From NCBI GenBank assembly GCA_018401565.1, contig JAGYKS010000022.1:1-64000 (forward strand): a stretch of 64,000 bases of DNA, written 5' to 3'. The translations under genes and the position numbers were made by a program. The notes under the pieces are model-generated. The model saw only the letters and a list, made by a program, of their open reading frames with translations, had not been told where the DNA came from and searched no databases. Of this stretch, positions 12,051 to 53,734 are shown one piece after another (within the stretch, counting starts at the first letter, position 1; the number at the start of each line of letters is the position of its first letter). The stretch comes from Acidimicrobiales bacterium. GTDB taxonomy: Bacteria > Actinomycetota > Acidimicrobiia > Acidimicrobiales > Acidimicrobilacustridaceae.

Positions 12051-12777
12051 CCCGGACCGGTGCCCCGAACACGGTGTGCACCCCGGGTGAGTACATGAGG
12101 GCGACGTCGGGGGGGCCGTGTACCTTCAGGCCGGCTCCAGCCACCAGACCATCGTTGAGTCGGGTGAGCGTGGCGTCGTGCAACGTCCACGGCTCGTGAT
12201 GGTTGGGCATCCACCACGTACGTCCCGCCAGCCGGGTGTGCAGCCCCCATCTGGCGGTGAGGAACACCGACAGGTCATCAGGTTGCCCGATGGGCTGGCC
12301 CACCTCGATGGCAATGTCACTGCGTAGCCCCCGTTGGGGCCAGCGCCGATACGTCGACCAACTGCGTTGCGCCCCGCTCACCGTGGCGCGCTGGCGTGCC
12401 CACGTGTAGCGCACCCCCACTGCCGCCCGGGCGATGAGTGCGATGAGCAGCCGACTGGTCTCGGCGCTGGCAAACACCACCCCATGCCGACCTTCGTCGT
12501 CCACCGAGTACAGCCGCACGTTGGTTTCCAAAAAGTCCCCGAAGTAGGGAACCCCGGGGGCGCCAAACACCGACGCCGATCGCATCTCGAACGGCACCAG
12601 GGCCACGAACGAATCCCCGTCAAAGGTGTCGGGCCGGGTTCCCGCCGGCATGAACGGGGCCACCACTGCCGGATGCACCCGCCAGTGGAGGAAGGCCACG
12701 TCACGCCAATCCTGGGCGAACAGCGCTGGACCGGCCAGCGGCGGCGGGTCAACAGCAAAGCCGGCGGGCAGCGCCAT
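12040..12777 (-). CDS. DUF2071 (YqjF-like) protein
   Basis: A 245-residue protein beginning MALPAGFAVDPPP. It matches the DUF2071/YqjF family pattern: DWRDVAFLHWRVHPAVVAPF near the start, FVALVPFEMRSASV, PYFGDFLETNVRLY in the middle, and a C-terminal half with RWGLHTRLAGRTWWMPNHH. The family has an acetoacetate-decarboxylase-like fold with no settled activity. Start ATG at 12777 overlaps the stop of the protease gene upstream (TGATG), so the two may be co-translated, although a functional link is not obvious. Confidence 0.8.
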   Translation of the reverse strand: MALPAGFAVDPPPLAGPALFAQDWRDVAFLHWRVHPAVVAPFMPAGTRPDTFDGDSFVALVPFEMRSASVFGAPGVPYFGDFLETNVRLYSVDDEGRHGVVFASAETSRLLIALIARAAVGVRYTWARQRATVSGAQRSWSTYRRWPQRGLRSDIAIEVGQPIGQPDDLSVFLTARWGLHTRLAGRTWWMPNHHEPWTLHDATLTRLNDGLVAGAGLKVHGPPDVALMYSPGVHTVFGAPVRVSP

Positions 12778-14539
12778 CAGGGTGTGGCGACCCAGAGGTT
12801 GTCGATGCCGCCGAACCGGTAGATGAACGCCGACATCTGGGCCCGGGTGACGGGGTCGGCGGGCCGGTACGGGTTGAGCACGGTGATGCCCTGGGCCAGC
12901 AGCCAGCACGCACCGGGTTGGGCGTAGGTGGGGATGGACGCTTCGTCGGCGAACCGGCATGACGACGGCGACGATGGCGACCCGGCCATGCGCCACAAAA
13001 ACGCTGCCATCTGGTCCCGGGTGACCACATCATTTGGCCGGAACGGATTGGCGGTGGTGATGTTTTGTTCGTCCAGCCAGCACGCCGCCTCAGCGGCGTA
13101 GGTGGGAATGGACGCCTGGTCGGTGAACCCGCACGGGGTGACGGTGGCAGGAGACCCTGCCGTGCGCCACAAGAACGCTGCCATTTGGGCTCGGGTGACC
13201 AGTTCGGTGGGGTTGAAGATGGTGGTGCTGCCACCCCACCCGGTGGTGATGTTGCGCAATGCCAGCATGGCGGTGGGCTGGGCGAAGTACGTGCCGTCGG
13301 GAACGTCAGTGAACGGTGATTGTTGCGGGCCGGCCCCGGCGGTGACCTGCACCGATGCCGCCGACACCGCCGATACCCCACCGGCGTTGGAAGCCACCGC
13401 TGTGAACGTGTAGATCCCGTTGGGGTCAAGGCCGGTGATCCCACACGACCCGGCAGCCCCACCGGCCACACACGTTGCACCACCAGGTGTGGCCGTGACC
13501 AGGTGACTGGTCGGCACAGCACCCGACAACACAGGATCAATCGTCACCGTCACCGAACCCACCGACGGCACCACCAGCGGCGCCACCGGGGCCGCCGGAA
13601 TCACAAACAACTCAGGGACGTAGGTGGCGATCCAGCCCAGGTAGGCAGTTACCCTCGTGTACACCCCCGGGAAATCCGCCAACCCGCAGGGTCGGTATCC
13701 CCAGCTGGCCAGCCCAGCCACGGCCCAGCCTGCGTTTTGGGTCACCAACAACGGCCCACCGCTGTCACCGGCACAGATGTCCACCGATGCCGTGGGGGCC
13801 AGCGGTACGTCGCCGACGGCGCACACCATGGTGGCCGGGACATAGAAAAAGACCCCCGACGGATTGTCGACAGTGTTGACATTGCGGCAGGTGGCCGAAT
13901 CCGGCCCGGCGGCCACGGCCATATCTCCCTGGCGCAGGTAGGACGGGGTGAACCCGCCCTCGACCTCACCCCAACCCACGGCGCGGTCGCGGTACCCAAC
14001 TCCAGGGTGGTGGCCGAAGCCGCCAGCGCCAGAGCCGGCACCGAGACGTTGCGCGACGGGTCGGCCAGCTGCAACAGGGCGACGTCGTTGCTGAACGAGG
14101 TGGTGGGGTCCCAGCCGGGATGAATGATGATTGCGGTCACCGTCTGACGGTCGGCCAACGTGACCAGCTCCAGATTGGGTTGGCCAACGGCGATCTCGAT
14201 GTCAGCCGGGCTGCTCCAGAGGTCGACGCAGTGCGCTGCGGTCAACACCCAGCCCGGGGCGACGAGCGACCCGCCGCAGAACTGGCCCAGGGCGGCGTTG
14301 GGCTGAGTGGTCGACGCACGCAACAGCGGCACCATCCACGGGTAGTCATCGGGTGACGCAATCGGCTGCCCGTTCACGATCTGCGGTGACACCGTGCCAT
14401 TGTCCAACGAGGCTGCTGCTGGCGAACCGGGGATCCCCAGCATGCCGAGCACCACAGCCATCACCGACAGTGCTGCCACGCCACGACGGCGGTGGCGCCC
14501 GAGTCGAAAACCACGCTCGGACTCAGAAGGTGTTGACAC
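12777..14539 (-). CDS. secreted trypsin-like serine protease with SLH-like repeats, one frameshift
   Basis: N-terminal signal peptide (RHRRRGVAALSVMAVVLGML, then SPAAA), then an S1 protease domain starting QIVNGQPIASPDDYPWMV. The catalytic triad is visible: His in LTAAHCVD, Asp in SNDVALLQL and Ser in CAGDSGGPLL. The chain breaks frame near 13975, between the ATAPWVGVR and GWGEVEGGF segments. After the protease comes a fibronectin/Ig-like region (about 13330-13600) and three SLH-like repeats with the VTRAQMAAFLWR core. Two GTG starts fit (14548, 14539); the second has GGAG at a spacing of 8 bases. It is probably exported and held at the cell surface by the repeats. Confidence 0.85.
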
Positions 14540-14678
14540 GGGCTGCACTCCACAAGCGTTGGGCTTGGGCCCCGGCGGGGACCAGCTCTCGATCGCCCAG
14601 ACGCTACCGCAGGGTCAACACCAGTCCACCGCCGGGGCACGGGCTCACTTCGTCGAACCGGTGGCCACCGAAGGCAGC

Positions 14679-17747: not shown

Positions 17748-18581
17748 TCAGGTATCGATGTCGGCCACGACACAGAAATGGTCCGAGGGCCACACGCCAT
17801 CGATGGGTTCGGTGCCGGCAAGGTGGCAGGCAGCCACATGCCCGGCGTTGCGGCGGCGGGGCCACCCCACCATGACGTAATCGAGTCGTCGGTCTGGGGT
17901 AGGCAGCACGCTTGGGCACGAGGGGGTTGGCCGCCGACCACGTTGCTCCCGCCCGGCGTTGCCGGCCGCCTCCCAGGCGTCGATGAACACCAGACCGTCC
18001 ACCAGGGGCACTGAGGCCCCAGTGAGGCTGCGCACTTCGTCTGACCAGGGCACGGCATTGAGGTCACCGGCCAGCACCGCCGGCAACTGGGTGGACCGGG
18101 TCAGTCGGTCGCCGAGCACGTCCACCACCGTGGCGGCCAGGTGGGTGAGTTGGGCGTGGCGAGTCGCCGACCGGTCGAGCCCATGTTCGAGGTGGGTGCC
18201 CACCACCACGAAATCCCCACCCTGGTCGTCGGGTCGCAGCACCCGAACCACGATGGCGTGACGCCAGGTGGGCTCGCCGTGTTCATCGTGCAGCGACCGG
18301 GCCACCTCGATGGCCAGCGGCCAGCGCGACATCACGGCGTTGACCACCCAATAGGGGGCATTGGGGTAGCGGTCGAAGCCGGCCAGGTCGGCAGCGGTCA
18401 CCGCATACATGCCCAACTCTCCGGCCAGCACGTCGGCCTGGGTGGCGCCGCCCGGCTCCACCCACGACTCCTGCAGGGTCACCACATCGGGGTCCAGCCC
18501 ATCGAGCACACGCACAATGGCGCCCTGTCGGTCCTGCCATTGCCCGACCCGCCCCTGAATGTTCCACGTCACGACCCGCAC
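17748..18581 (-). CDS. endonuclease/exonuclease/phosphatase family protein
   Basis: A 277-residue protein from the GTG at 18581, with family motifs in order: VRVVTWNIQG at the start, VVTLQES, the GTHLEHG catalytic segment, AGDLNAVPWSD, and WPSDHFCVVADI at the end. This metal-dependent fold cleaves phosphodiesters or phosphomonoesters (nucleases, sphingomyelinases, inositol phosphatases); the substrate is open. No signal peptide, so it is probably cytoplasmic. It lies downstream of oleD on the same strand with a gap of about 90 bp, possibly in the same transcript. Confidence 0.8.
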   Translation of the reverse strand: MRVVTWNIQGRVGQWQDRQGAIVRVLDGLDPDVVTLQESWVEPGGATQADVLAGELGMYAVTAADLAGFDRYPNAPYWVVNAVMSRWPLAIEVARSLHDEHGEPTWRHAIVVRVLRPDDQGGDFVVVGTHLEHGLDRSATRHAQLTHLAATVVDVLGDRLTRSTQLPAVLAGDLNAVPWSDEVRSLTGASVPLVDGLVFIDAWEAAGNAGREQRGRRPTPSCPSVLPTPDRRLDYVMVGWPRRRNAGHVAACHLAGTEPIDGVWPSDHFCVVADIDT

Positions 18582-18673
18582 CCCACCACACTGCCCCAGC
18601 GGTCGCACCCCATGTCGGACCCGGGCGCAACCCGGGAGACTAGCGCTGCGGGCGCTGCGTGGGCGCTGCGTGA

Positions 18674-19633
18674 TCAGCGAGGGTGTTCGGCGAACCAGCG
18701 GGCAAGCTCGACAAAGCCGGCGTCGAGACCCACCGCCGGTTCCCACCCCAGCGCCTCGCATGCCTGACGTTGGTCGAACCAGTGGGCAACGGTGAGCTGA
18801 CGGGCAGCAAAGTGGGTGAGCGGCGGTTCACTGCCGGGCCAGGCCGCACCCACCACGGCGCCAGCGATGCTGGCCACCATGCCCGGGGTGCTCCGCCACG
18901 ACGGCTCCACACCCGCTGCGATGAGGATGGAGGCGACAAGGTCACGCACCGGCCGGGGCTCCCCACCAGAAACCACCCACGCCCGACCCACGGCCCGGTG
19001 ACCGGCGTCGGCGGTGGCATCCAGGCCAGCCACGATGGCATCGGCAGCATCGGTGACATAGGTGGAGTCCACCAGTGCCGCGCCGCCGCGCGGCAACGCC
19101 AGTCGCCCGGCAACGGCCCGGTCCACGATCCGGCCCACCAGCTGGGTGTCGCCGGGACCCCACACCAGGTGGGGACGCAGCACCACGGTGGGCACGATGG
19201 ACGTCGACAGCACCATGCGCTCGGCGATGGCCTTGGAACGTGCGTAGCCGTCACGTCCGGAGTACCTGGCCGGCTCGGCGTCGGGGCCCATGGCCGGACT
19301 GTTGTCGAACGCCACCGACGGGGTGGAGATGTGCACCAGCCGGCCGCACCCGGCGGCGGCGGCCACCACATTGGCTGAGCCACCGATGTTGACGTCCACA
19401 AAGCGCTGCCATCGGGCTCTCGGGGCCACCAGGGCGGCCAGATGCACGATGGCGTCGTGACCATCGGCGGCCCGGCGGACGGCGTCGGCATCGGTGATGT
19501 CGGCCGACACGTCACGCAACCCGGTGTCGCTCGGCCGACGCTGCAGGCAGGTGACGTCATCGCCGCGCCTGGCGAGGCTGGTGGCAACCGTTGCACCCAG
19601 CAGGCTGGTGGCCCCGGTGACCAGTACCCGCAT
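18674..19633 (-). CDS. oleD: OleD, NAD(P)H-dependent 2-alkyl-3-ketoalkanoate reductase
   Basis: A 319-residue extended short-chain dehydrogenase with the nucleotide-binding MRVLVTGATSLLGATVA start, HLAALVAPRARW, the active-site YARSKAIAE (YxxxK), LRPHLVWGPGDTQLV and a C-terminal LGWEPAVGLDAGF. OleD reduces the 2-alkyl-3-keto acid made by OleA to the 3-hydroxy acid. ATG at 19633 is one base after the oleBC stop, so it is in operon with oleA and oleBC. The cluster context is the main reason for choosing OleD over other 3-beta-HSD-like SDRs. Confidence 0.85.
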   Translation of the reverse strand: MRVLVTGATSLLGATVATSLARRGDDVTCLQRRPSDTGLRDVSADITDADAVRRAADGHDAIVHLAALVAPRARWQRFVDVNIGGSANVVAAAAGCGRLVHISTPSVAFDNSPAMGPDAEPARYSGRDGYARSKAIAERMVLSTSIVPTVVLRPHLVWGPGDTQLVGRIVDRAVAGRLALPRGGAALVDSTYVTDAADAIVAGLDATADAGHRAVGRAWVVSGGEPRPVRDLVASILIAAGVEPSWRSTPGMVASIAGAVVGAAWPGSEPPLTHFAARQLTVAHWFDQRQACEALGWEPAVGLDAGFVELARWFAEHPR

Positions 19634-19634
19634 G

Positions 19635-22196
19635 TCAGCGACCGGCCAGCAGCCCGGCAGCAGAGGCAGCCAGTGCCACCCGATCCACCTTGGTGCGGTG
19701 ACGGATATCCACCGGCAGACGACCAGTGAGCACTGCGGCCACCGGAGCACTGCACGCGGCGCGCACCGCTGCGGTGGTGGCCAGGTCGGCCAGGGCCAGG
19801 TTGGCATCGGCGTCAACCACCACCACCAGCGCCTGGGTGCCAGCAGGACCCACACCCACCGCAGCCACCGACTGACCGGTGGCCGCCAACACCTCGTGTT
19901 CGGGCACCACACACGGCAGCGGTCCGGCTGCCGGGGTGATGAGGTGGACCACGCGACCCAGCTGGAACAGGCGGCCGTCGGCATCGAGGTACCCGACATC
20001 ACCGGTGCGGTGGAACATGGTGCCGTCGATGGCCACAGTGGCATCACGGGTCAGTCCCCAACGCCGGTCGTACCCCGCACGCATCCACGCCGCCGACACC
20101 AGGATCTCACCCCATGTCGTCGACAGTTTGCCGGGGTCGTCGACATCGGTGATGACGATGTCCACACCGTCCAGCGGTCGACCGGTGCAGGTACCGCCGT
20201 ACGGGCCGGTGGCCGCCGGTGTGGTGCCATCGGTGAGCGGCATGGCCTCGGTCATGCCATACGGAGCCCGCACGTCAGCACCCGTGATGGTCTCGACAGC
20301 GCTGACAAGTTCGGGCGGTACCGGTGCCCCGGCCAGCATGATGAGCTGCATCGGCACGCTCCGCCCACCGGCGGTGTCGACCACCCGCTGGGCGGCCGCC
20401 GGTGACAACCACGCCGTGGTGGTGTCGGCGCTGGCAGCGACAAAGGCATCGAAGTCCAGGGCCCCAGGGGTGACGTCGGCAGGCAGGCTGCAGGTCAGAC
20501 CGAGGGCCGGACCGACCAGGGTGAACGGGGCGAACGAGGTGGTGAACGCCCCCATGGGGAACTGCCCCAGCACCACGTCACGCTGGGCGGCCAACGCACC
20601 GTGGGTGTACACCACCGGCTTGGCCGGCCCGGTGGCACCCGAGGTGTGCACCACGGCTGCGGGTGCTTCAGGATGCAGAGTGGGCAGGGCCTGATCGGAA
20701 CGGGCCTCATCACGATGGGCCTCATCACGATGGGCCTGACCGGAATCGACGTGCCCCGGGGCCGCCGGCACAACCATGTGCCGGGCACCGGGGGTGAGAC
20801 CCACGACTCGCGCCAGCCGGGTCGTGCGGGAGGTGCCGATCGCCCACTGCACGGTGGCAGCCCGCATGAGCCGTCGCATGGGGCGCAGGCCGATCTGGGC
20901 ATCCACGGCCACCACCACTCCCCCAGCCAGCCAGATGCCGTAGGCGGCAGCCAGGCAGTCGGCGCTGGGCGGCACCAGCAGCGCCACCCGATCGCCAGGG
21001 GTGAGGCCGTCGGCCACCAGCCGCGAGGCGATGTGGTGGGCGTGGTCGAACAGCTGTTGCCACGACCGGGTCCCGCCCGGACCCCGATAGGCCACCGACG
21101 TGTCGGTGCTGCGATCCACCAACCCGCTGGTCACCGAGGCAAACCCTGCAGCCGACGTCGACGATGCCGGTGGGGACGATGCCGGCGGGGACGATGCCGG
21201 CGGGGACGATGCCGGTGGGGACGCCGTCAGCGACCCTTGATCCTTTGCCGTGACGGGTTCGCCACCGGTGTCTGGACGTTCGCCAGCTGGCAGTGCGGAT
21301 TCGCCGAGGTCGGGCACCGTGTCCAGCAACCAGGTCCAGGCCACGTCGGCCACCGGGGCGTCGAGGGTGACCAGGTGGGCGGCGGCAGGGAACACCTGAA
21401 TCTGGGCCTGGGGCACACGATCGACGAGATCGGCCAGGAACCGGTGGTGAAACACGGGGTCACGACCACCCCACGCCAACAGCACCGGATAGGTCACCGA
21501 GTCGAGATCCCGGGCCACCTGCTGGAGGGTGATCCATGAGCGGTCGGCAGGACCCACGGGGATGTCAGCGACAAACTCGGCCACCGCATGCCGACGTTCC
21601 CGGCCCCGGTACGGCGCCCGCAGCGCATCACGATGCACAGGATCGGTCATGCGGGCGGTGCCGCCCACAAACGCCGGGGTGCGCTCGCATCCAAACGTTG
21701 CCGCCGAGCGGGCCAGTGCGATGAGCGGTGGCATGCGCACACCATCGGGAAGCCCAACAGCGGTGTTGGTGAGAACAAGGGCCCGACAGTCGAGCTGGGC
21801 GGCAGCACCGATGGTGACCGGACCACCCCAGTCGTGGGCGGCCATCACCACCGGGCCGGCAGTGTGCTGACGGACAAACGCCACCAGTTCGCTGATGCGC
21901 TCGGCCAGGATGCGCGGCGTACCCCGACCAGAAAACCCCATGCCGGTCTGGTCCACGGCCACCACCCGCCACCCCGCCGGCGCCTGGGCCACAAAGTCCT
22001 TCCAGATGTACGACCACGTGGGATTGCCGTGGGTGCACACCAGCGTGCCACGCACCGGGTCGGCGCCATTGTCGAGGATGTGCCATCGCACGGCGGTGCC
22101 GTCAGAGGTCGTGAAGTCCACCAGGCGCGACCACGTCGGATCCAGGCCCCAGTCCCGCATCTGGGCGGCGGTGGGCCCGTGGGCCTGGGCGATCAC
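19635..22196 (-). CDS. OleBC fusion: beta-lactone decarboxylase + beta-lactone synthetase
   Basis: An 853-residue protein. Residues about 1-295 are an alpha/beta hydrolase of the haloalkane-dehalogenase type, with Asp nucleophile in AAHDWGG (D122), acid WGGRDPVFHH and His in AAAHLVTLDAP (H273), as in OleB. A repeat linker (about 325-350) joins an ANL-fold ligase (about 360-853) with P-loop HTSGATGPAK, APYGMTEAMPLT and FHRTGDVGYLD, as in OleC. OleC closes a beta-lactone from the 2-alkyl-3-hydroxy acid; OleB decarboxylates it to an internal cis-olefin. GTG at 22196 overlaps the oleA stop (GTGA). Fused OleBC is known from actinobacteria such as Micrococcus luteus. Confidence 0.88.
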   Translation of the reverse strand: MIAQAHGPTAAQMRDWGLDPTWSRLVDFTTSDGTAVRWHILDNGADPVRGTLVCTHGNPTWSYIWKDFVAQAPAGWRVVAVDQTGMGFSGRGTPRILAERISELVAFVRQHTAGPVVMAAHDWGGPVTIGAAAQLDCRALVLTNTAVGLPDGVRMPPLIALARSAATFGCERTPAFVGGTARMTDPVHRDALRAPYRGRERRHAVAEFVADIPVGPADRSWITLQQVARDLDSVTYPVLLAWGGRDPVFHHRFLADLVDRVPQAQIQVFPAAAHLVTLDAPVADVAWTWLLDTVPDLGESALPAGERPDTGGEPVTAKDQGSLTASPPASSPPASSPPASSPPASSTSAAGFASVTSGLVDRSTDTSVAYRGPGGTRSWQQLFDHAHHIASRLVADGLTPGDRVALLVPPSADCLAAAYGIWLAGGVVVAVDAQIGLRPMRRLMRAATVQWAIGTSRTTRLARVVGLTPGARHMVVPAAPGHVDSGQAHRDEAHRDEARSDQALPTLHPEAPAAVVHTSGATGPAKPVVYTHGALAAQRDVVLGQFPMGAFTTSFAPFTLVGPALGLTCSLPADVTPGALDFDAFVAASADTTTAWLSPAAAQRVVDTAGGRSVPMQLIMLAGAPVPPELVSAVETITGADVRAPYGMTEAMPLTDGTTPAATGPYGGTCTGRPLDGVDIVITDVDDPGKLSTTWGEILVSAAWMRAGYDRRWGLTRDATVAIDGTMFHRTGDVGYLDADGRLFQLGRVVHLITPAAGPLPCVVPEHEVLAATGQSVAAVGVGPAGTQALVVVVDADANLALADLATTAAVRAACSAPVAAVLTGRLPVDIRHRTKVDRVALAASAAGLLAGR
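21160..21224 (-). repeat. 15-bp tandem repeat in the OleB-OleC linker
   Basis: About four copies of GACGATGCCGGTGGG/CGGG encode Ser-Pro-Pro-Ala-Ser units, forming a flexible Pro-rich hinge between the hydrolase and ligase domains. The unit is in frame, so length variation would not break the gene. Confidence 0.8.
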
Positions 22197-23194
22197 CAGA
22201 CCAGTTCGGCGATGGAGCAGTTCAGCCCCGACCCGATGCCACACAACAGGATCCGGTCGCCCGAATGCAGGTCACCCGACACCATCGACAGTGTGTAGGG
22301 CAGGGCGGCAGGGCCCATGTTGCCCAAGGTGGGGTAGGTGAGCGGGACAAGCGCCGGGTCGATGTCCATCAGCTCGCACATCTTGGCGGTGTGCACCGCC
22401 GACACCTGGTGCATCACGTAGGTGTCGCAGTCACGCCACTTCCATCCCTCGGCCTCGGCGGCCGCCACGGTCTCAGAAGCCAACTCGAGGCCGGCGGCCA
22501 GCAGGGCGGCGGTGTCGGTGCGCATGCTCTCGAGGTCACCCACGCACAGGTCGTTGTGCTGGGTGGCGGCGCGCGACACGCTGCCCATGAACGCGTGACC
22601 GTCGGTGCGGGGCGACCCCATCACCATGGCTGCAGCTCCCGAACCCAGGGTGAGGGTGGCGAAATTGGCGAACACGTCGGCGGTGGTGGCCTCGGGAGAT
22701 GACAGCCGGGCCAGAGTGTGCTGCTGGGGCTGGCGGCTGCCCTCGCCGTCCACGATGAGCACGTTTCGGGCGTTGCCGGTTTCGATGGCCATGGCGGCGG
22801 TGTCCATGGCGTTGACGAACCCCAGACAGGCGTTGCCCAGGTCGAAGTTGCGGCATGCCGACGACAGGCCCAGATGGTTGTGCACCGCACACGCCACCGA
22901 CGGCTCCAGGTTGTGTTTGCACACCGACGTGGAAATCAGCAGGTCGATGTCTTCGGGTTGCAGCCCGGCGGCCTCGATGGCCCGACGGCCGGCTATGGCG
23001 GCAGCCTCGTCGAAGGTCGTCCCCTCGGGCCACCAGCGGCGCTCCACGATGCCGGCCAGATCGGCCAGCAAGCCAGCGCGGATGCCACAGCGTTCGTAGG
23101 TGTCAGCGAGTTGCTCGTCGATCCACGCCGATGTCACCACCTCGGGGGCCTCGGCATGGGCCACGGACAGGACATGGGTGTTGGAAAATCGCAT
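22193..23194 (-). CDS. oleA: OleA, head-to-head acyl-CoA condensing thiolase
   Basis: A 333-residue KAS III-like thiolase-fold enzyme. The catalytic residues are C123 (FDLGNACLGF), H262 (YVMHQVSAVH) and N292 (PTLGNMGPAALP). The NLEPSVA segment (E97) corresponds to the glutamate that OleA enzymes use as base for non-decarboxylative condensation, a feature separating OleA from FabH. OleA joins two fatty acyl-CoAs to a 2-alkyl-3-ketoacid. It is the first gene of oleA-oleBC-oleD. Start ATG at 23194; the Shine-Dalgarno sequence is weak. Confidence 0.88.
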   Translation of the reverse strand: MRFSNTHVLSVAHAEAPEVVTSAWIDEQLADTYERCGIRAGLLADLAGIVERRWWPEGTTFDEAAAIAGRRAIEAAGLQPEDIDLLISTSVCKHNLEPSVACAVHNHLGLSSACRNFDLGNACLGFVNAMDTAAMAIETGNARNVLIVDGEGSRQPQQHTLARLSSPEATTADVFANFATLTLGSGAAAMVMGSPRTDGHAFMGSVSRAATQHNDLCVGDLESMRTDTAALLAAGLELASETVAAAEAEGWKWRDCDTYVMHQVSAVHTAKMCELMDIDPALVPLTYPTLGNMGPAALPYTLSMVSGDLHSGDRILLCGIGSGLNCSIAELVW

Positions 23195-23265: not shown

Positions 23266-23421
23266 TCAACCAGGCCTGGAAAGGACCGTCACCATGAACC
23301 CGCCAGCGAGGTCGTCACCGGCGGCAGCCATGTCACGAAAGCGCTGGGCGTCACGGTGCGAGTGGTCGGGGTCATCCCGGGTGATCTGCACCCATTGGCT
23401 CGGTTCGACACTGGCGTTCAT
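23266..23421 (-). pseudogene. N-terminal remnant of a class I SAM-dependent methyltransferase
   Basis: From the ATG at 23421 the peptide reads MNASVEPSQWVQITRDDP, then HSHRDAQRFRDMAAAGDDLA, a pattern typical of the first 45 residues of actinobacterial class I methyltransferases just before the SAM-binding GxGxG loop. It then diverges and stops at 23266; no SAM-binding motif follows before oleA starts. I read it as a truncated gene. A real short protein is less likely. A GGGAGA element precedes the ATG, so it may still be translated. Confidence 0.5.
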
Positions 23422-23472: not shown

Positions 23473-25371
23473 CTACCCCACGGCCACCAACAGGTGGTGC
23501 AGGCCCGACGACCGCCCCGACGGGTTGGCCAACGCCGTGGTGAACGCCTGCGGTGAACCCACCACAGTGACGGCATGCTTGGCCCGGGTGATGGCGGTGT
23601 AGACGAGTTCACGGGTGAGCAGGGGCGAACCCTGCTGCGGCAGCACCACCACCACCTGGTCGGCATACTCCGAGCCCTGGCTCTTGTGGACGGTCATGGC
23701 ATAGGCCCGCTCCACCGGAGGGAGTTCGGCCGGCGTCAGCGACACCAGACCCTGTCGGGCGGCGAACAGCACACGGATCCCGTCGTGGGTGCGCACCACG
23801 AGGCCGATGTCACCGTTGTCGAGCCCGACGCGCGGTGAGTTGACCGTCACCAGCAGGGCTCGACCCACCTCGATGATGCGGTCGGGGTGCAACCCGAGGT
23901 GTTCGTCGATCACGTCGTTGAAGTGCTCCACTCCAAACGGACCGCGTCGGGCGCCGCACAGCACCCTGCTGCCAGCAAGGATGGCGAGCGCCTCAACGTG
24001 CTTGCCACCATCAAGCGACCGGGCGCCGTCGCACACCGCCACGTACGCGCCCAGGACCGGGGCGACAACGTCAGCGGGGGGCCACTGGCCGTCGGGCAGT
24101 TCCACCAAAGTGAGACGTTCGTCGTCACTGGCGCGCATCATGTCCACAGACTCGGGCGCACCGTCTCGCACCAAAGGTGCCAGGTCGGCGATGGGGTTGC
24201 CCTCGGCCACCCGGTACACCTTGCGCAGCTGGTGGACATGACCGCCCAACACCGACTCAGCCAACGTCAGGTCACGCAGCACGCTGCCGGACTCAACACT
24301 TTCGAGCTGGGCCTCGTCGCCCACAAGCAAGACCCGGGCACCGAGACGAACCGCCTCGAGCAGGCGGGCCATGAGTTGCAGCGACACCATGGACGTTTCA
24401 TCCACGATGATCAGGTCATGGGCCAGCGGTCGGTTGGCATGGTGGGCAAAGCGGGTGTCCATCCCCGCAGCACGCCCAAGCAGGCGGTGGATGGTGACCG
24501 GCTCCACTGCCGCCAGGGCGTCGAGCACCTCGGGGGTGACACCGGCAAGCGCATCGGTATCGGCATCGGCAGGCGATCCGGTGGCCTGGAGTGCGGCAGT
24601 GCGGGCGACGTCCTCGGCGTGACCGTCGACGAAGTCACGCAGCATCTCGCTGGCACGGGTGGCGGCCTTGCCGGTGGGGGCACACACCGCCACGGTGACA
24701 TCGTCCCCGGCGGCATGGGCGGCCACGAGATAGGCCAGCAGGCAGCGGGTGAGCGTGTGGGTCTTGCCGGTGCCCGGCCCGCCCGTCAGCACGTTGAACG
24801 ACTGGGTCAGCACGGCCCGGCCCACCTGGTTTTGGGCCGTGTCATCCCCGTCGGTGGGCAGCACGGCATCCACGAAGGCCAGCGCCTCGGCGCTGGGTGG
24901 TGGCGGAGCCGAAGCGGCCAACGCCGTCACCCGTTCAGCCACCGACAGCTCGTCGACGAACTGGCGTTGGGCGTACAACAAGGTGCCCCACAGCACCAGG
25001 GGTCGGCCGTCGGCCAGGGCATCGGCCGACGAGCCCGGGTGGTCGGCGTCCACGACGCGCACCACCTGGTGGGCCCCGTGCAACGCAGCACGCAGATCGC
25101 TGCCGGGTGGCAACGCCGGCGGCTGCCAGTCTGATCCCGACCGGCGCACCGCAGCGTCGAGCATGGAACCAACGTCGTCGGTGTTCACGCAGGCATGGCC
25201 GGTGCGGTGAGCCCACACCGCAAGCGCGGCGGCCAGCAGCACGGCGTCATTGGTGACACCGGCGTGGCGCTCCAGCAGGCTGGCCACCGCCCGCTCGGCA
25301 CCACCGAACAGACCATGGCCGGTGACCGGGTCATGGGCCAGTGGGGCAAGTACGGACGCGGCGTTGGTCAT
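23473..25371 (-). CDS. recD: exodeoxyribonuclease V alpha subunit RecD
   Basis: A 632-residue SF1B helicase: Walker A TGGPGTGKTHTLTR, motif II IIVDETSMVS, VGDEAQLESVESG, and C-terminal motifs AMTVHKSQGSEY and VYTAITRAKHAVTV. With RecB and RecC it forms the helicase-nuclease that resects double-strand breaks and degrades linear DNA. ATG at 25371 overlaps the recB stop (TGATG). The open frame extends upstream over recB, but that part is a shadow. Intact over its whole length. Confidence 0.94.
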   Translation of the reverse strand: MTNAASVLAPLAHDPVTGHGLFGGAERAVASLLERHAGVTNDAVLLAAALAVWAHRTGHACVNTDDVGSMLDAAVRRSGSDWQPPALPPGSDLRAALHGAHQVVRVVDADHPGSSADALADGRPLVLWGTLLYAQRQFVDELSVAERVTALAASAPPPPSAEALAFVDAVLPTDGDDTAQNQVGRAVLTQSFNVLTGGPGTGKTHTLTRCLLAYLVAAHAAGDDVTVAVCAPTGKAATRASEMLRDFVDGHAEDVARTAALQATGSPADADTDALAGVTPEVLDALAAVEPVTIHRLLGRAAGMDTRFAHHANRPLAHDLIIVDETSMVSLQLMARLLEAVRLGARVLLVGDEAQLESVESGSVLRDLTLAESVLGGHVHQLRKVYRVAEGNPIADLAPLVRDGAPESVDMMRASDDERLTLVELPDGQWPPADVVAPVLGAYVAVCDGARSLDGGKHVEALAILAGSRVLCGARRGPFGVEHFNDVIDEHLGLHPDRIIEVGRALLVTVNSPRVGLDNGDIGLVVRTHDGIRVLFAARQGLVSLTPAELPPVERAYAMTVHKSQGSEYADQVVVVLPQQGSPLLTRELVYTAITRAKHAVTVVGSPQAFTTALANPSGRSSGLHHLLVAVG

Positions 25372-28300
25372 CACATGTCCCCCAGGTAGTTGCTGGCTTC
25401 CAGCACCAGGGCGCTCGGGGGTCGCCAGGCGAACACCCCGTTGCGCACACCGTCGATCACCGGGGTGTCGGGGCCGGTCATGCCGCGCACAAACAGGTAG
25501 CACGACGGCCCCAGGTGGGTGTCGATGTCGTAGCCATCCAGGCGCAGCGACAGCATGCGGTGCAGCGCAACGCTGTACACCAGCGCCTGCACCGGATAGT
25601 CGTGATGGACCATCTCGGCGTGCATGGCGTCGGTGGCGTAGGCGGCGACCACCGGGTTGGCACGGTCGTGCAGGGTGTTGGTCTTGTGGTCGGCCAGGGC
25701 GTAGGTCCACCCGTGGGCTGCCGGCACCCGAAGCACGAGGTCGATGCTGCCGGTCATCAGCCCGGCAAAGTCGAGACCGCCGGTGTCGTCGGCCAGACGG
25801 GCGAAATGGTCGGTGAACGGTGAGTCGTGCGCCGCCGCCAATTCGAACAGGCCCCGCACCGCCATCGATGTGCGACCGTCACCAAGGGGGAAATGAAACG
25901 ACAGTTCCGGGATCCGGTCGCCAGCCCGCACGCCGCAAAGCGGGATCCCACCCAAGGCGTCGATGGGTGTGCGCAGGGCGTCGGCCAACCCGGCAACAAG
26001 GTCGTCGGTGTCGATGTCATCGGCGTCGGCATACGAGGTGGCGGCAACGGCCCGACGCAGTTCGTCGTCGAGGGGGTCGGCGGCAAAATCGGTGACCTCC
26101 AGGATCTCGTGCACCCAACTGCCAAAGAACCTGCCGCCGCCCATGCCCAGCAATCTGCCGGTCAGTGGTTCGTCCATGTGATCCTGCGGGGCGACGAGGT
26201 CGATGCCGGGTGCATCGGTGTCGGGTTCGTCGAAACCACCGCCGGTGATGCCGTCGTCGTCGCCATGGGCCGCCGACGTCAACGATGAGTACGACCACCG
26301 GTACCAGGCCGGGTTGGCGACGTGTGCACGGGTGAATTCGGCGGGCACAAACGCGGCGGAGTCGCCGCCCGTTGCGAGCTCGATGCGTGAAGGCTCCACC
26401 ACCTCGGGAATCTTCCGGAGTTCGAAGCCCGACTCAAGCTGGCCCGACCCAGGATGGCCCAGACCCAAGACGGTTCACCAGGTCCGTGAACACGGCCTCG
26501 GTTTCCTCGTCGCTGGGGTTGCGGGGGGTGGCGTGGAGGTCGGTGGTGTCGCCGAACAGCACACGTCCCAACGGACCCTTGTTGGCACCGCGGGTTTGTG
26601 CCCACCACACAACGAGCTGGTGCTGGGCACGGGTGAACGCCACGTACAACAGACGCAGGTCATCGCCGGCGACCTCCACCTCGGCCAGCGCCCCACGCTG
26701 TTTGGGCCCAAAACCGTCAACATCCCACGGCACACCCGGGGCAGCATCCACCATGCGCGTCAGATCCCCGTCGTGGTCCTCTGACCACGAATAGGGCTGG
26801 GAGGACCTCGGGGCCTTGGGGTAGGGCACCAGCACCACCGGGTACTCCAGACCCTTGGACGAATGGATGGTGGTGATCTGCACTGCCTTGGCGTCACTGT
26901 CGACTCGCCGTATCTCGTGGTCGGCCGCGCTGCGGTTGGCCACCAGGCTGTCGAGGGCGTCACGCACAACGGCTGCGGGCTGGTTGCGGCCGTCAAGGCT
27001 GGCATGGAGCAGTTCAACAACATGTTCGAGGTCGGTGAGTCTGCGCTCGGCTTCACCGGTGCGGGCAATGGCCAGCAGCACGTCGGCCTCGGTGCGCAGC
27101 TGTTGGAAAAACCCCATCACCCCGAGATCCTCGAGGTCCACGGCCCACCCCAGACACCGGGTCTGCATGTCCTCCACCCAGGCGTCGTCGAACAGCAGGT
27201 GCAAGGGCTCGTCCACGAACCAGCCCACTGCCAAGGCCCGGACCCGGCGGGCGTCACGATGATCGGCCAGCGCCGCCAGCAGGATGCGCAGCTGCTCCAC
27301 CACGTCGGTGTCGAGCACGTTGCCGATGCGGCTGCGCACCACCGGAATGTTTCGCGCCTCGAGCTCATTGGCAATGGGCTCGGCGTCGTCATGGCTGCGC
27401 ACCAGCACGCAGATGTCGCCGGGCTGCACCTGGCGGGGCTGCCCCGATCCCGACCGGGGATGGATCAGCCCATCGGTGAGCAGGTCCACCACATGGTTGG
27501 CCAGGTCGGCGGCGATGATGCGGACGGGCCAGCGGCGCCAGCAGGTCAGGGGGGTTGCCATTTTTGGAGGGTCGGCGGAGATCGATGGATGACGAGGCAG
27601 CCACCGCAATTGCACGGGTGCCCCGGCGCCGGTGAGTCGTTGGTCAACGTCACTGGCAGGGGTGTCCACCTCCACGTAGCCGATGTTGGCGTCACCAAAG
27701 GTCTTGCCCGCCAACCACGAGTTGAGCACCGCCACCAACGCCGGGTCCGATCGCCAATTGCGCCGCATCTGGCGGGTGGCCATGCGGGGGTCGGCGGCGA
27801 ACTGGAGGTAGGCGGCGATGTCGGCACCGCGGAATCGGTAGATGGCCTGCTTGGGATCAGCCACCGTGATCAGGGCCAGAAACGGGTCGTCGGGGCCGGC
27901 GCTTGGAGCGAACGTGGTGGAAAACAGTTTCCACATGGCGTTGTCGGTGTCCTGGAACTCGTCGATGAGGGCCAGGCGGTAACGCTTGCGCAGCGTGGCC
28001 TGCAGGCCGGCACCGAGGTCACCGTCGCCGAGCAACCGCACCAGTTCGACGATGAGGTCGTCGAAACCCAGCACGCCACTGGCGATCCGGGTGGCCCGGA
28101 TGCGCTCAATGAGCTGGCTGACCAGCACCGACCAACGTCGGGCCATGGCAGTGGCATCGCCGCTTGCATCGGGGGCGGCATCGCCAGGACATCGCCTTGC
28201 ATCGGTGGCAGCGGCGGCGGGCTCAGCGTCGTTGTCGGCTGTCGGTGCGGGATGGGCCGACAGATTGCCGGACAGTTCCTTGAGGACCTTGTGCAGGTCG

Positions 28301-49126: not shown

Positions 49127-51032
49127 TCAGCTCCGGTCGTGGACAGACTGCCCGCCGGTGGATTGCCCGCCGGTGGACTGGTCAGGATCCCCGTTGCCTG
49201 AAGCGGGCGATTCGGGGCGCTCGAGTGTGGACAGGTCTCCAGTGGGCAGCCCCAGCTCACGGGCCCGCAGCAACCGCCGCATGACCTTCCCGCTGCGGGT
49301 GTGGGGGAGGTCGTCGACCACCTCGATGTATCGGGGAGCCACCGCCGGACCCAGCCGACGACGGGCCACAGCCCGCAGGTCGATGACCAACTCATCGCCG
49401 CCGGTGTACCCGTGGTTGAGGGTGACAAACGCCTTGACGGCCTCGCCGGCGGTGGGATCGGGGACCCCTATGACCCCGGCCTCTGCCACCGCCGGGTGCT
49501 CCAACAGCACACTCTCCACCTCAAACGGACCCACCAGATGGCCAGCAGACGTGATGACATCGTCGGCCCGACCCACGAACCACAGGTTGCCGTTGGCGTC
49601 ACGGCGCACGAGGTCACCAGTGAGGTACCAGCCGTCGGCGAAACATCGGCGATACCGGTCGAACTCACCCAGATAGCCCCGGAACATCGATGGCCACGGG
49701 GTTCGAAGCAACAGCTGACCGTCGGCCTCGGGCGCCTCGATGACCTCCACGGTGACCCACGCTGCGATGCCCTCTGGCCCGACGGCATCGTCGGCGTGGG
49801 CGATCTCAGTCACGGTGGCAACTGCTGCGGTGATGCCCGGCACCGGCACGCCCATGGACCCGGGCACCACCGGTGGCCCTGGAGGGTTGGCCACCATGAT
49901 GGAGCCGGTCTCGGTCTGCCACCACGTGTCGTGGATGTCCACGCCCAACACGTCGGCACCCCACCGCACCACCTCGGCGTTGAGGGGTTCGCCCACACTG
50001 GCCACGTGGCGAAGGCCACCCAGGTCGAACTCGCCGGCCAGTTCGGGACCAGCCCGCATGAGCATCCGCAACGCCGTGGGGGCGGTGTACCAGACGTCCA
50101 CATTCTCGGCCGTGAGCGTGGTGAGCCACCGACGGGCGTCGAACTCGGCCTCGTCGACAATCACTGTCGCCCCGACGGCCAACGGTGCCACGATGCCGTA
50201 GGAGGTGCCCGTGACCCATCCCGGGTCGGCGGTGCACCAGTACACGTCACCGGGGGGCGAGGTCGAGCGCCGACACCGCCGTGGCATGGTGGGCCACGAT
50301 CGCCTCATGCACGTGGAGCGCCCCCTTGGGGGTGCCGGTGGTGCCACTGGTGAAGTGCACCAGGGCGGGGTCGTCGGGCCGGGTGGCGACCATGGCGTGA
50401 TCCGGTGATGCTTGACCCATGAGGGTGGCCAGGTCCAGGGTGCCGGGCACGTCGGTGGGCGTGTCGTCACCACCGACGAGCACGACGTACTCCAATGTCG
50501 GTACCTGGTGGTGCACCGACTCCAGCCGGCGGCGGTAGAGCGCCTCGGTGGTCACCACCACCCGCGCCGACCCCATGGTCATGCGCTGGCGCAGTGGCTC
50601 GGGGCCAAATGCGGTGAACATCGGCGACACCACGGCGCCGACCCGCAGCGAACCCAGCATCGCCACGAACAGGTCGGGGGTTCGCCCCAGCAAGGTGTAC
50701 ACGGCATCGCCTGCCCCCACCCCCAGCCCAGCCAGCACGTTGGCGAACCTGGACGTGAGCACGTGGAGTTGGCGGTAGGTGACAAGCGTTCGGGTGCCGT
50801 CAACCCCCAGGCACCGCAATGCCACCTGATCACCGGCGGGGCCGGCCACATGACGGTCCACGGTTTCGTGGGCGATGTTGAGACCACCGTCGGGCAGGCC
50901 GTCAAGGGCATCGCGGGCCCGGGCCCAAACAGCAACATCGCCATCGATGCCCACACCGGAACCAGATGGATCGGCGCCACCACCCTGGCGGTGGGCGGCG
51001 TGAGCAGATGCAGCGGTGTGATTGCCGGTCAT
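49127..51032 (-). CDS. acsA: acetate-CoA ligase (AMP-forming), AcsA-like, one frameshift
   Basis: About 635 residues. ANL motifs: P-loop [40 protein letters not shown], the acetyl-CoA-synthetase-type [12 protein letters not shown], and [16 protein letters not shown] and [15 protein letters not shown] (acylation-regulated Lys) at the end. The Bacillus-type AcsA wording suggests acetate or a short acyl acid as substrate. The frame break is near 50255, just after the P-loop region. The C-terminal tail is a degenerate STGGQ repeat. Start ATG at 51032 is plausible but others are in frame. It is the first gene of the operon continuing into E1 alpha. Confidence 0.88.
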
Positions 51033-52021: not shown

Positions 52022-52076
52022 CACCACCAGGCACCCAGCCCCGCAAGGGAGGGTGAAACACAGGAGAACCACGGCC

Positions 52077-53734
52077 ATGGCCCGCCTGACCGCCATTGCA
52101 GCGTCAGCACGCGCCCTCGCAACCAGCGGCCTCCTGCGACCCGTATCCCCATCCCGTCTGGTTGCAGCAGCGGCGGCGTTGCGTCACTGGGGCGTCAACT
52201 ACGCCGGGGGGTTCGCCGCATCGGCGGCCCGGCACCCTGATCGGCCGTGTGTCATTGACCCCACCGGCACACTCACGTGGCGCCAGGTGGACGTGCGGTC
52301 TGACGCCATCGCCAATGCGTTGGCCGACCGGGGCGTGGGCAACGACACCGTGGTGGGTCTGCTGTGTCGCAACCATGCCGGGTTCGTGGTGGCCACAGCG
52401 GCGCTGTCCAAGCTGGGAGCGACAGTGCTGCTGGCCAACACCGGGTTCGCCGGACCGCAGCTGCGTGAGGTCCTGCACCGTGAAGGCGCCACGCTCGTGG
52501 TGTGCGACGCCGAATTCGTGCCCCTGGTGACCGGCAGCTCTGATGCAGGTTCCGATGCAAGCACCAACGGCACCACCGTTGTGGTTGCCGATGCTGGGCC
52601 GGGAACCTCGGACCTGACCACCCTGGCCGACCTGACCACCCTGGCCGACCTGGCCACCCTGGCCGACCTGGCCACCACCGGCGCACCCCAGCGGCCCCCG
52701 GCACCGCAACGCCCGGGCCGCATGGTGATTCTCACCTCGGGAACCACCGGCACCCCCAAGGGTGCACCCCGCCCCCAGTCCACCGGGCTGGACACCGCCT
52801 CGGCCATGCTCGACCGCATTCCCTACCGTGATGGCGACGTCACCGTGCTGGCCGCCCCGCTGTTTCACGCCTGGGGCTTCGCCAACCTGGGCCTGGCCGT
52901 GTTTCTGGGGTCCACCATGGTCCTGCGTCCGCGGTTCGATCCCGCCACGGCCCTGGCCGACGTGGCCGCCCACCGCGCCAGCGTGCTGGTGGCGGTACCG
53001 GTGATGCTGCAACGCATGTGTGACCTTCCCGACCACGTGATCGCCGCCCACGACACCTCCACGCTGCGGGCCGTGGTGCTGAGTGGCTCGGCTCTGCCCG
53101 GCGCCCTTGCTACCCGATGGATGGACACCTTCGGCGACAACCTGTTCAACCTGTACGGCTCCACCGAGGTGGGCTGGGCCACCATCGCCACCCCTGCCGA
53201 CTTGCGGGCCGATCCCTCCACGGCCGGACGACCCCCGCTGCACACCACCGTGCGCATCCTCGATGACGATGGACTCCCGGTACCTACAGGCACCACCGGC
53301 AGGATCTTCGTGGGCAGCTCACTGTTGTTCGACGGCTACACAAACGGCGACAACAAGGAGGTCATCGACGGCCACATGTCCACCGGCGACACCGGCCGGC
53401 TGGATGCCGCCGGGCGCCTGCGGGTGGAGGGCCGCAGCGACGACATGATCGTGTCGGGGGCGAGAACGTGTTTCCGCGTGAAGTGGAAGAACTCATTGAG
53501 CGCATCACCGGGGTGAGCGAGGCCGTGGTGGTGGGCGTGCCCGACGACGAGTTCGGTGCCCGCCTCAAGGCCTTCGTGGTGCACGCCCCAGGCGTCACCA
53601 ACCCCACCGCCGACGACATCTGTCAGCACGTGGCGGCCAATCTGGCCCGGTTCAAGGTGCCACGCGAGGTGGTGTTCATCGACGAGCTGCCCCGCAATGC
53701 CACCGGCAAGGTCCTGCGGGCGCAACTCACCTGA
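52077..53734 (+). CDS. long/medium-chain fatty acyl-CoA ligase (FadD-like), one frameshift
   Basis: About 552 residues, ANL fold: P-loop [71 protein letters not shown]. After a break near 53460, ENVFPREVEELIERITGVSE and ELPRNATGKVLRAQL complete the C-terminal domain with its catalytic Lys. It activates a fatty acid with ATP and CoA. ATG at 52077 has AGGAGA about ten bases upstream. A 15-bp tandem repeat expands the region just before the P-loop. Confidence 0.88.
52607..52678 (+). repeat. 15-bp tandem repeat in the acyl-CoA ligase gene
   Basis: About four and a half copies of GACCTGACCACCCTGGCC-type units encode TTLADL/ATLADL repeats between the N-terminal subdomain and the P-loop. The unit length keeps the frame. 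DNA-level identity points to recent slippage expansion. Confidence 0.8.

Follow-up and report, generated by a model that had tools for sequence, protein, structure and literature searches.

The locus described here raises the question of whether it encodes a whole pathway from acyl chains to long-chain olefins, how it reached its present host, and from where that host would draw the acyl chains that the first enzyme consumes. The stretch of DNA that was analysed (64,000 nucleotides, hereafter the window) belongs to a metagenome-assembled genome, or MAG, which is 90.6% complete and contains frameshifted genes. As judged from the sequence, the window very probably carries a complete and intact oleA-oleBC-oleD operon with fused oleB and oleC, predicted to make internal long-chain olefins, likely from scavenged feedstock, and exchanged horizontally within the family.

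Organization of the ole operon

The genes and gene parts of the cluster are as follows:

22193-23194, minus strand: oleA, 333-aa head-to-head condensing enzyme of the thiolase fold (E97, C123, H262, N292)
19635-22196, minus strand: oleBC, 853-aa fusion with a GTG start; Pfam alpha/beta hydrolase and AMP-binding domains
21297-22196, minus strand: OleB half, beta-lactone decarboxylase, haloalkane-dehalogenase-like (H56-G57-N58, D122-W123, D246, H274)
21132-21296, minus strand: OleB-OleC linker, containing 4.3 tandem copies of a 15-nt repeat at 21160-21223 (peptide SPPAS)
19635-21131, minus strand: OleC half, beta-lactone synthetase of the ANL fold (TSGATGPAK, YGMTE, HRTGD, GR748, K836)
18674-19633, minus strand: oleD, 319-aa SDR reductase (TGATSLLG, S103, Y130, K134)

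All three genes were found on the minus strand where the first-pass annotation had placed them. Its description of three overlapping genes holds for oleA and oleBC, since the GTG at 22196 overlaps the oleA stop codon by 4 nt (GTGA), but not for oleBC and oleD, where the ATG of oleD (19633) lies 1 nt past the oleBC stop. One overlap and a gap of a single nucleotide make the cluster an operon by its layout. The GTG at 22196 is most likely the start of oleBC, because of this 4-nt overlap and because homology to related proteins begins just downstream; for the same reasons, an alternative GTG at 22244 was set aside. A search for sigma-70 promoters returned no match, a weak test at 70% GC, and neither tRNA genes nor Rfam families were found in the window.

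Identity and conservation of the Ole proteins

OleA scored 411.7 bits against the NCBIfam model PRK09258 (cut-off 285), whereas the scores of FabH models on this protein fell far below the cut-offs of those models. The crystallised OleA structures of Xanthomonas campestris, the source of a characterised OleABCD system, align with it from end to end (E 1e-83), and its residues E97, C123, H262 and N292, already pointed out in the earlier reading, correspond to the catalytic E97, C123, H265 and N295 in the X. campestris chain of 338 residues. These catalytic residues are invariant in 44 sequences. The OleA pattern EPxx[AS]x(14,18)DxxNACL occurs at residues 97-124, and oleBC and oleD lie no more than 5 kb away; both the pattern and the neighbour criterion come from PMC7158056, where neighbours were tested with Micrococcus luteus BLASTP queries, in place of which family models and queries from the window's own cluster were used here.

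For the OleC half, the best Ole-specific models were olefin beta-lactone synthetases (E 1e-43), and for OleD the best model was the NCBIfam 2-alkyl-3-oxoalkanoate reductase (E 2e-70). Membership in the narrow NCBIfam equivalogs was rejected, as OleBC reached 149.4 bits against NF045786 (olefin beta-lactone synthetase of the Xanthomonas type, cut-off 900) and OleD 237.7 bits against NF042422 (OleD, cut-off 580), so that both proteins are to be regarded as divergent. These equivalogs take their names from Xanthomonas- and Shewanella-type enzymes. In Xanthomonas, OleB and OleC are separate proteins.

Divergence of the two proteins is accompanied by conservation of their functional sites. Every position conserved in at least 95% of the rows of an alignment of about 44 clusters is retained in the window, the catalytic ones included, so that the loss of catalytic residues, for which this alignment was a check, was seen at no position. 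The nucleophile D122-W123, the acid D246, H274 and N58 of OleB are conserved in the aligned OleB set; the OleC half has the ANL motifs (P-loop TSG/K, YGxTE, RTGD and the C-terminal Lys), and OleD has the S-Y-K triad and the NAD(P) motif. Against the nearest relative, genome G015, dN/dS was 0.22 for oleA, 0.23 for oleBC and 0.17 for oleD, values that indicate purifying selection on all three genes. Together with the family and structure matches and with synteny, these results bear out the original assignment of the pathway as complete and intact; that the cluster is likely active, as also proposed, agrees with purifying selection and complete catalytic sets, which is support from sequence only.

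Predicted pathway and product

While the genes and residues are read directly, the chemical steps are those of characterised families. By this analogy, OleA would join two acyl-CoAs in a head-to-head condensation, giving a 2-alkyl-3-ketoacid that OleD would reduce to the beta-hydroxy acid. With ATP, the OleC half of the fusion would convert this acid to a beta-lactone, which the OleB half would decarboxylate to a cis-olefin. The olefin is the predicted end product because the catalytic residues of OleB are kept. The range of C25-C33 given in the first-pass annotation is carried over by analogy from other organisms and is not legible from the sequence.

It could be argued that the pathway ends at a beta-lactone resembling nocardiolactone, with OleB inactive or slow, since OleA, OleC and OleD are common to beta-lactone clusters, the nocardiolactone (nlt) clusters sharing OleA/C/D-type chemistry up to the lactone, and since the OleBC of the window is divergent. 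We consider this very unlikely: oleB is missing from the beta-lactone producers (PMC7064751), whereas in the window it is present, fused and under purifying selection, with D122-W123, N58, D246 and H274 all in place. The cluster was therefore not assigned to the nocardiolactone-type class (oleACD without oleB), and an olefin remains the predicted product.

Relation to known systems and distribution

The three genes, their order, the OleB-OleC fusion and the OleA pattern are shared with the operon of Micrococcus luteus and other Micrococcales (PMC7158056, PMC7064751), a likeness that rests on published descriptions and not on a sequence comparison; the host differs, being here a member of the Acidimicrobiia apparently without type II fatty acid synthase (FAS II). 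Closer to the window is the cultured Ilumatobacter nonamiensis YM16-303 (locus L048), in which gene order, fusion and catalytic motifs are the same, although its OleA is 57% identical and falls in a separate clade. The same order and fusion recur in other Acidimicrobiia and in Nanopelagicales, in dozens of genomes; on a Muiribacteriota contig B and C are unfused, and a possible exception to the fusion is the actinobacterial locus L086 (G417), whose B and C matches fell in different frames.

In a survey of 2020 (PMC7158056), Micrococcales were named as the sole Gram-positive order with an ole cluster, and the Acidimicrobiia are unmentioned in the main text of that work and of PMC7064751. Of 296 genomes sampled from the Acidimicrobiia, 43 encode a close OleBC; in a set of 296 genomes from the phylum, 17 have an OleA that exceeds the cut-off of PRK09258. 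The earlier suggestion that such a locus is notable in an Acidimicrobiia-like genome is thus weak, as ole clusters are common among Acidimicrobiia, I. nonamiensis included. The presence of ole in Acidimicrobiia is an extension of the known range and no new kind of cluster, and it takes the fused-BC operon well past Micrococcales. The less ordinary features of the window's cluster are its horizontal movement and a host genus apparently without FAS II. As side observations, stand-alone oleA genes with no oleBCD within 6 kb occur at L045 (4357-5349), in a genome that has a full cluster elsewhere (L155), and at L046 (6001-6993), in a genome in which no OleBC was found.

Horizontal exchange of the cluster

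The history of the cluster was read from trees and from gene neighbourhoods in the window's genome (G000), its congeners G001 and G002, and other members of its family (f1), among them G015 and its congener G005. In the RpoB tree, the window's genome groups with its congener G001 (93%) and G015 with G005; ole is absent from both G001 and G005. In contrast, the window and G015 are sisters in the Ole trees (support 100/99 for OleA, 100 for B+C+D, and 100/100 for all four concatenated). Placing G015 by constraint with the other f1 rows, the window left out, was rejected with a p-AU of 8e-62, in a test whose group was drawn from the RpoB tree but which was run after the Ole trees had been seen. 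In G015, the ole genes (L070, 7370-11913) directly adjoin the FAS II operon, with fabD on one side and a response-regulator gene on the other. The same site is empty in G005 (L157, 12217-12287), where both sides have about 86% DNA identity to G015 and 69 bases lie between them, and the response-regulator gene and fabD adjoin, with no ole between, in the sister genera G009 and G013. Given this empty site and these ole-free junctions, G015 most simply acquired the cluster at the response regulator/fabD site. The conflict between the Ole and RpoB trees, taken together with the empty site in relatives, leads us to conclude that the cluster is exchanged horizontally within the family, a clear case of movement for a pathway thought to move rarely.

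The GC content of the window's ole region is slightly raised (0.70 vs 0.67), and its tetranucleotide signature is closer to its own contig than to the ole genes of G015. Since the base composition of the cluster is near that of each host, the direction of transfer is not readable from composition. The cluster of the window is flanked by the following genes:

23473-25710, minus strand: recD, upstream flank (TIGR01447 above cut-off)
23266-23421, minus strand: methyltransferase remnant between recD and oleA, 51 aa, N-terminus of a SAM-dependent methyltransferase (phmmer 3cgg, E 1e-4)
17748-18605, minus strand: endonuclease/exonuclease/phosphatase gene, downstream flank, start uncertain (PF03372)

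The nearest relative of recD is in the same-genus G002 (658 bits vs at most 272 for others), and the endonuclease/exonuclease/phosphatase gene has a 72% relative in G009, there not beside ole. Searching with these flanks revealed no empty site for the window's own cluster, the G009 and G002 genes lying in other surroundings. The 51-residue remnant, for which no Pfam match was obtained, is perhaps a scar of the cluster's arrival. No close OleA was found on plasmid records.

Outside the family, the Ole proteins of family f23 are close to those of f1, against the RpoB tree, and a second transfer is likely. A further transfer is likely for L080 (G042, family f7), whose Ole proteins group with other families and not with the rest of f7. 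The f23 genomes, G058 (L075) for example, are small, at 1.6-2.7 Mb, and their Ole proteins have their closest counterparts in the window's family. In G058, OleA is the only FabH-like match, for which reason FAS II may have been lost there too.

Apparent absence of FAS II in the host genus and a proposed source of acyl-CoA

The absence of FAS was assessed by profile searches and synteny, comparing G000, G001 and G002 with G005, G009, G013 and G015. The order trpB-BCP-OGT-fabF-acpP-fabG-fabH-fabD-response regulator-polA-rpsA is kept in the four relatives (L157, L158, L159 and L070), with the acpP frame identified only in G005 and with trpB and rpsA off the G015 contig. In the host genus the block from fabF to fabD is missing on unbroken contigs (G000:C8, L173; G001:C29, L174; G002:C169, L175), and the distance from OGT to the response regulator is at most about 0.65 kb in all three. 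The FabD family (PF00698) gave no match in G000, G001 and G002, and ketosynthases (PF00109) none in G000 and G001, both searches being positive in all four relatives; FabH was not found in any of the three congeners, and OleA is the only FabH-like protein of G000. The sole ketosynthase match of the genus is a 125-residue fragment in G002 (G002:C121, L168), KasA-like of the mycobacterial kind by eye, which represents either contamination or acquisition. From these sequence data, the host genus appears to have lost its FAS II operon.

The host might still make fatty acids in some other way, by a divergent or acquired ketosynthase or with FAS genes lying in the missing 9% of the sequence, OleA then using FAS products. 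With a MAG that is 90.6% complete some FAS parts could indeed hide in missing sequence, and the KasA-like fragment of G002 fits such a route; nevertheless, we regard it as rather unlikely, for in each of the three genomes of the genus the conserved locus runs on unbroken with no fab genes, both Pfam families are without match in G000 and G001 and present in all four relatives, and FabH is absent from the three as well. Mis-binning, by which the ole cluster and the FAS-less genome would come from different organisms, deserves mention because the genomes are MAGs and ole is patchy in the family. It is most improbable, because in tetranucleotide usage the window flanks correlate with the FAS-less contig C8 at 0.94-0.96, compared with 0.72-0.85 for segments of other genera, and because the window's recD has its nearest relative in G002, as given above; GC contents also agree (67% in the window flanks, 66% in C8).

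Given the apparent loss of the FAS II operon from the genus, we propose that OleA is fed by scavenged fatty acids, which acyl-CoA ligases would activate to acyl-CoA. The window contains a FadD-like ligase gene (52053-53516), apparently broken near its 3' end, and relatives in Microthrix grow on long-chain fatty acids (PMC8267870). On literature dealing with ole together with exogenous fatty acids, nothing beyond a review was found. We give about even chances to the wider reading that a fatty-acid auxotroph keeps, and has exchanged sideways, a pathway turning scavenged fatty acids into membrane hydrocarbons, olefin synthesis being thereby uncoupled from fatty-acid synthesis. The genus would then offer a natural test of olefin function, as a lineage apparently without fatty-acid synthesis still spends two acyl chains on each olefin.

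Split or truncated genes were also noted for a trypsin-like protease, an acetate-CoA ligase and the FadD-like ligase (12777-14548, 49127-50473 and 52053-53734 of the window) and for polA (L173, 6446-9127); these may be assembly indel errors, and not pseudogenes.
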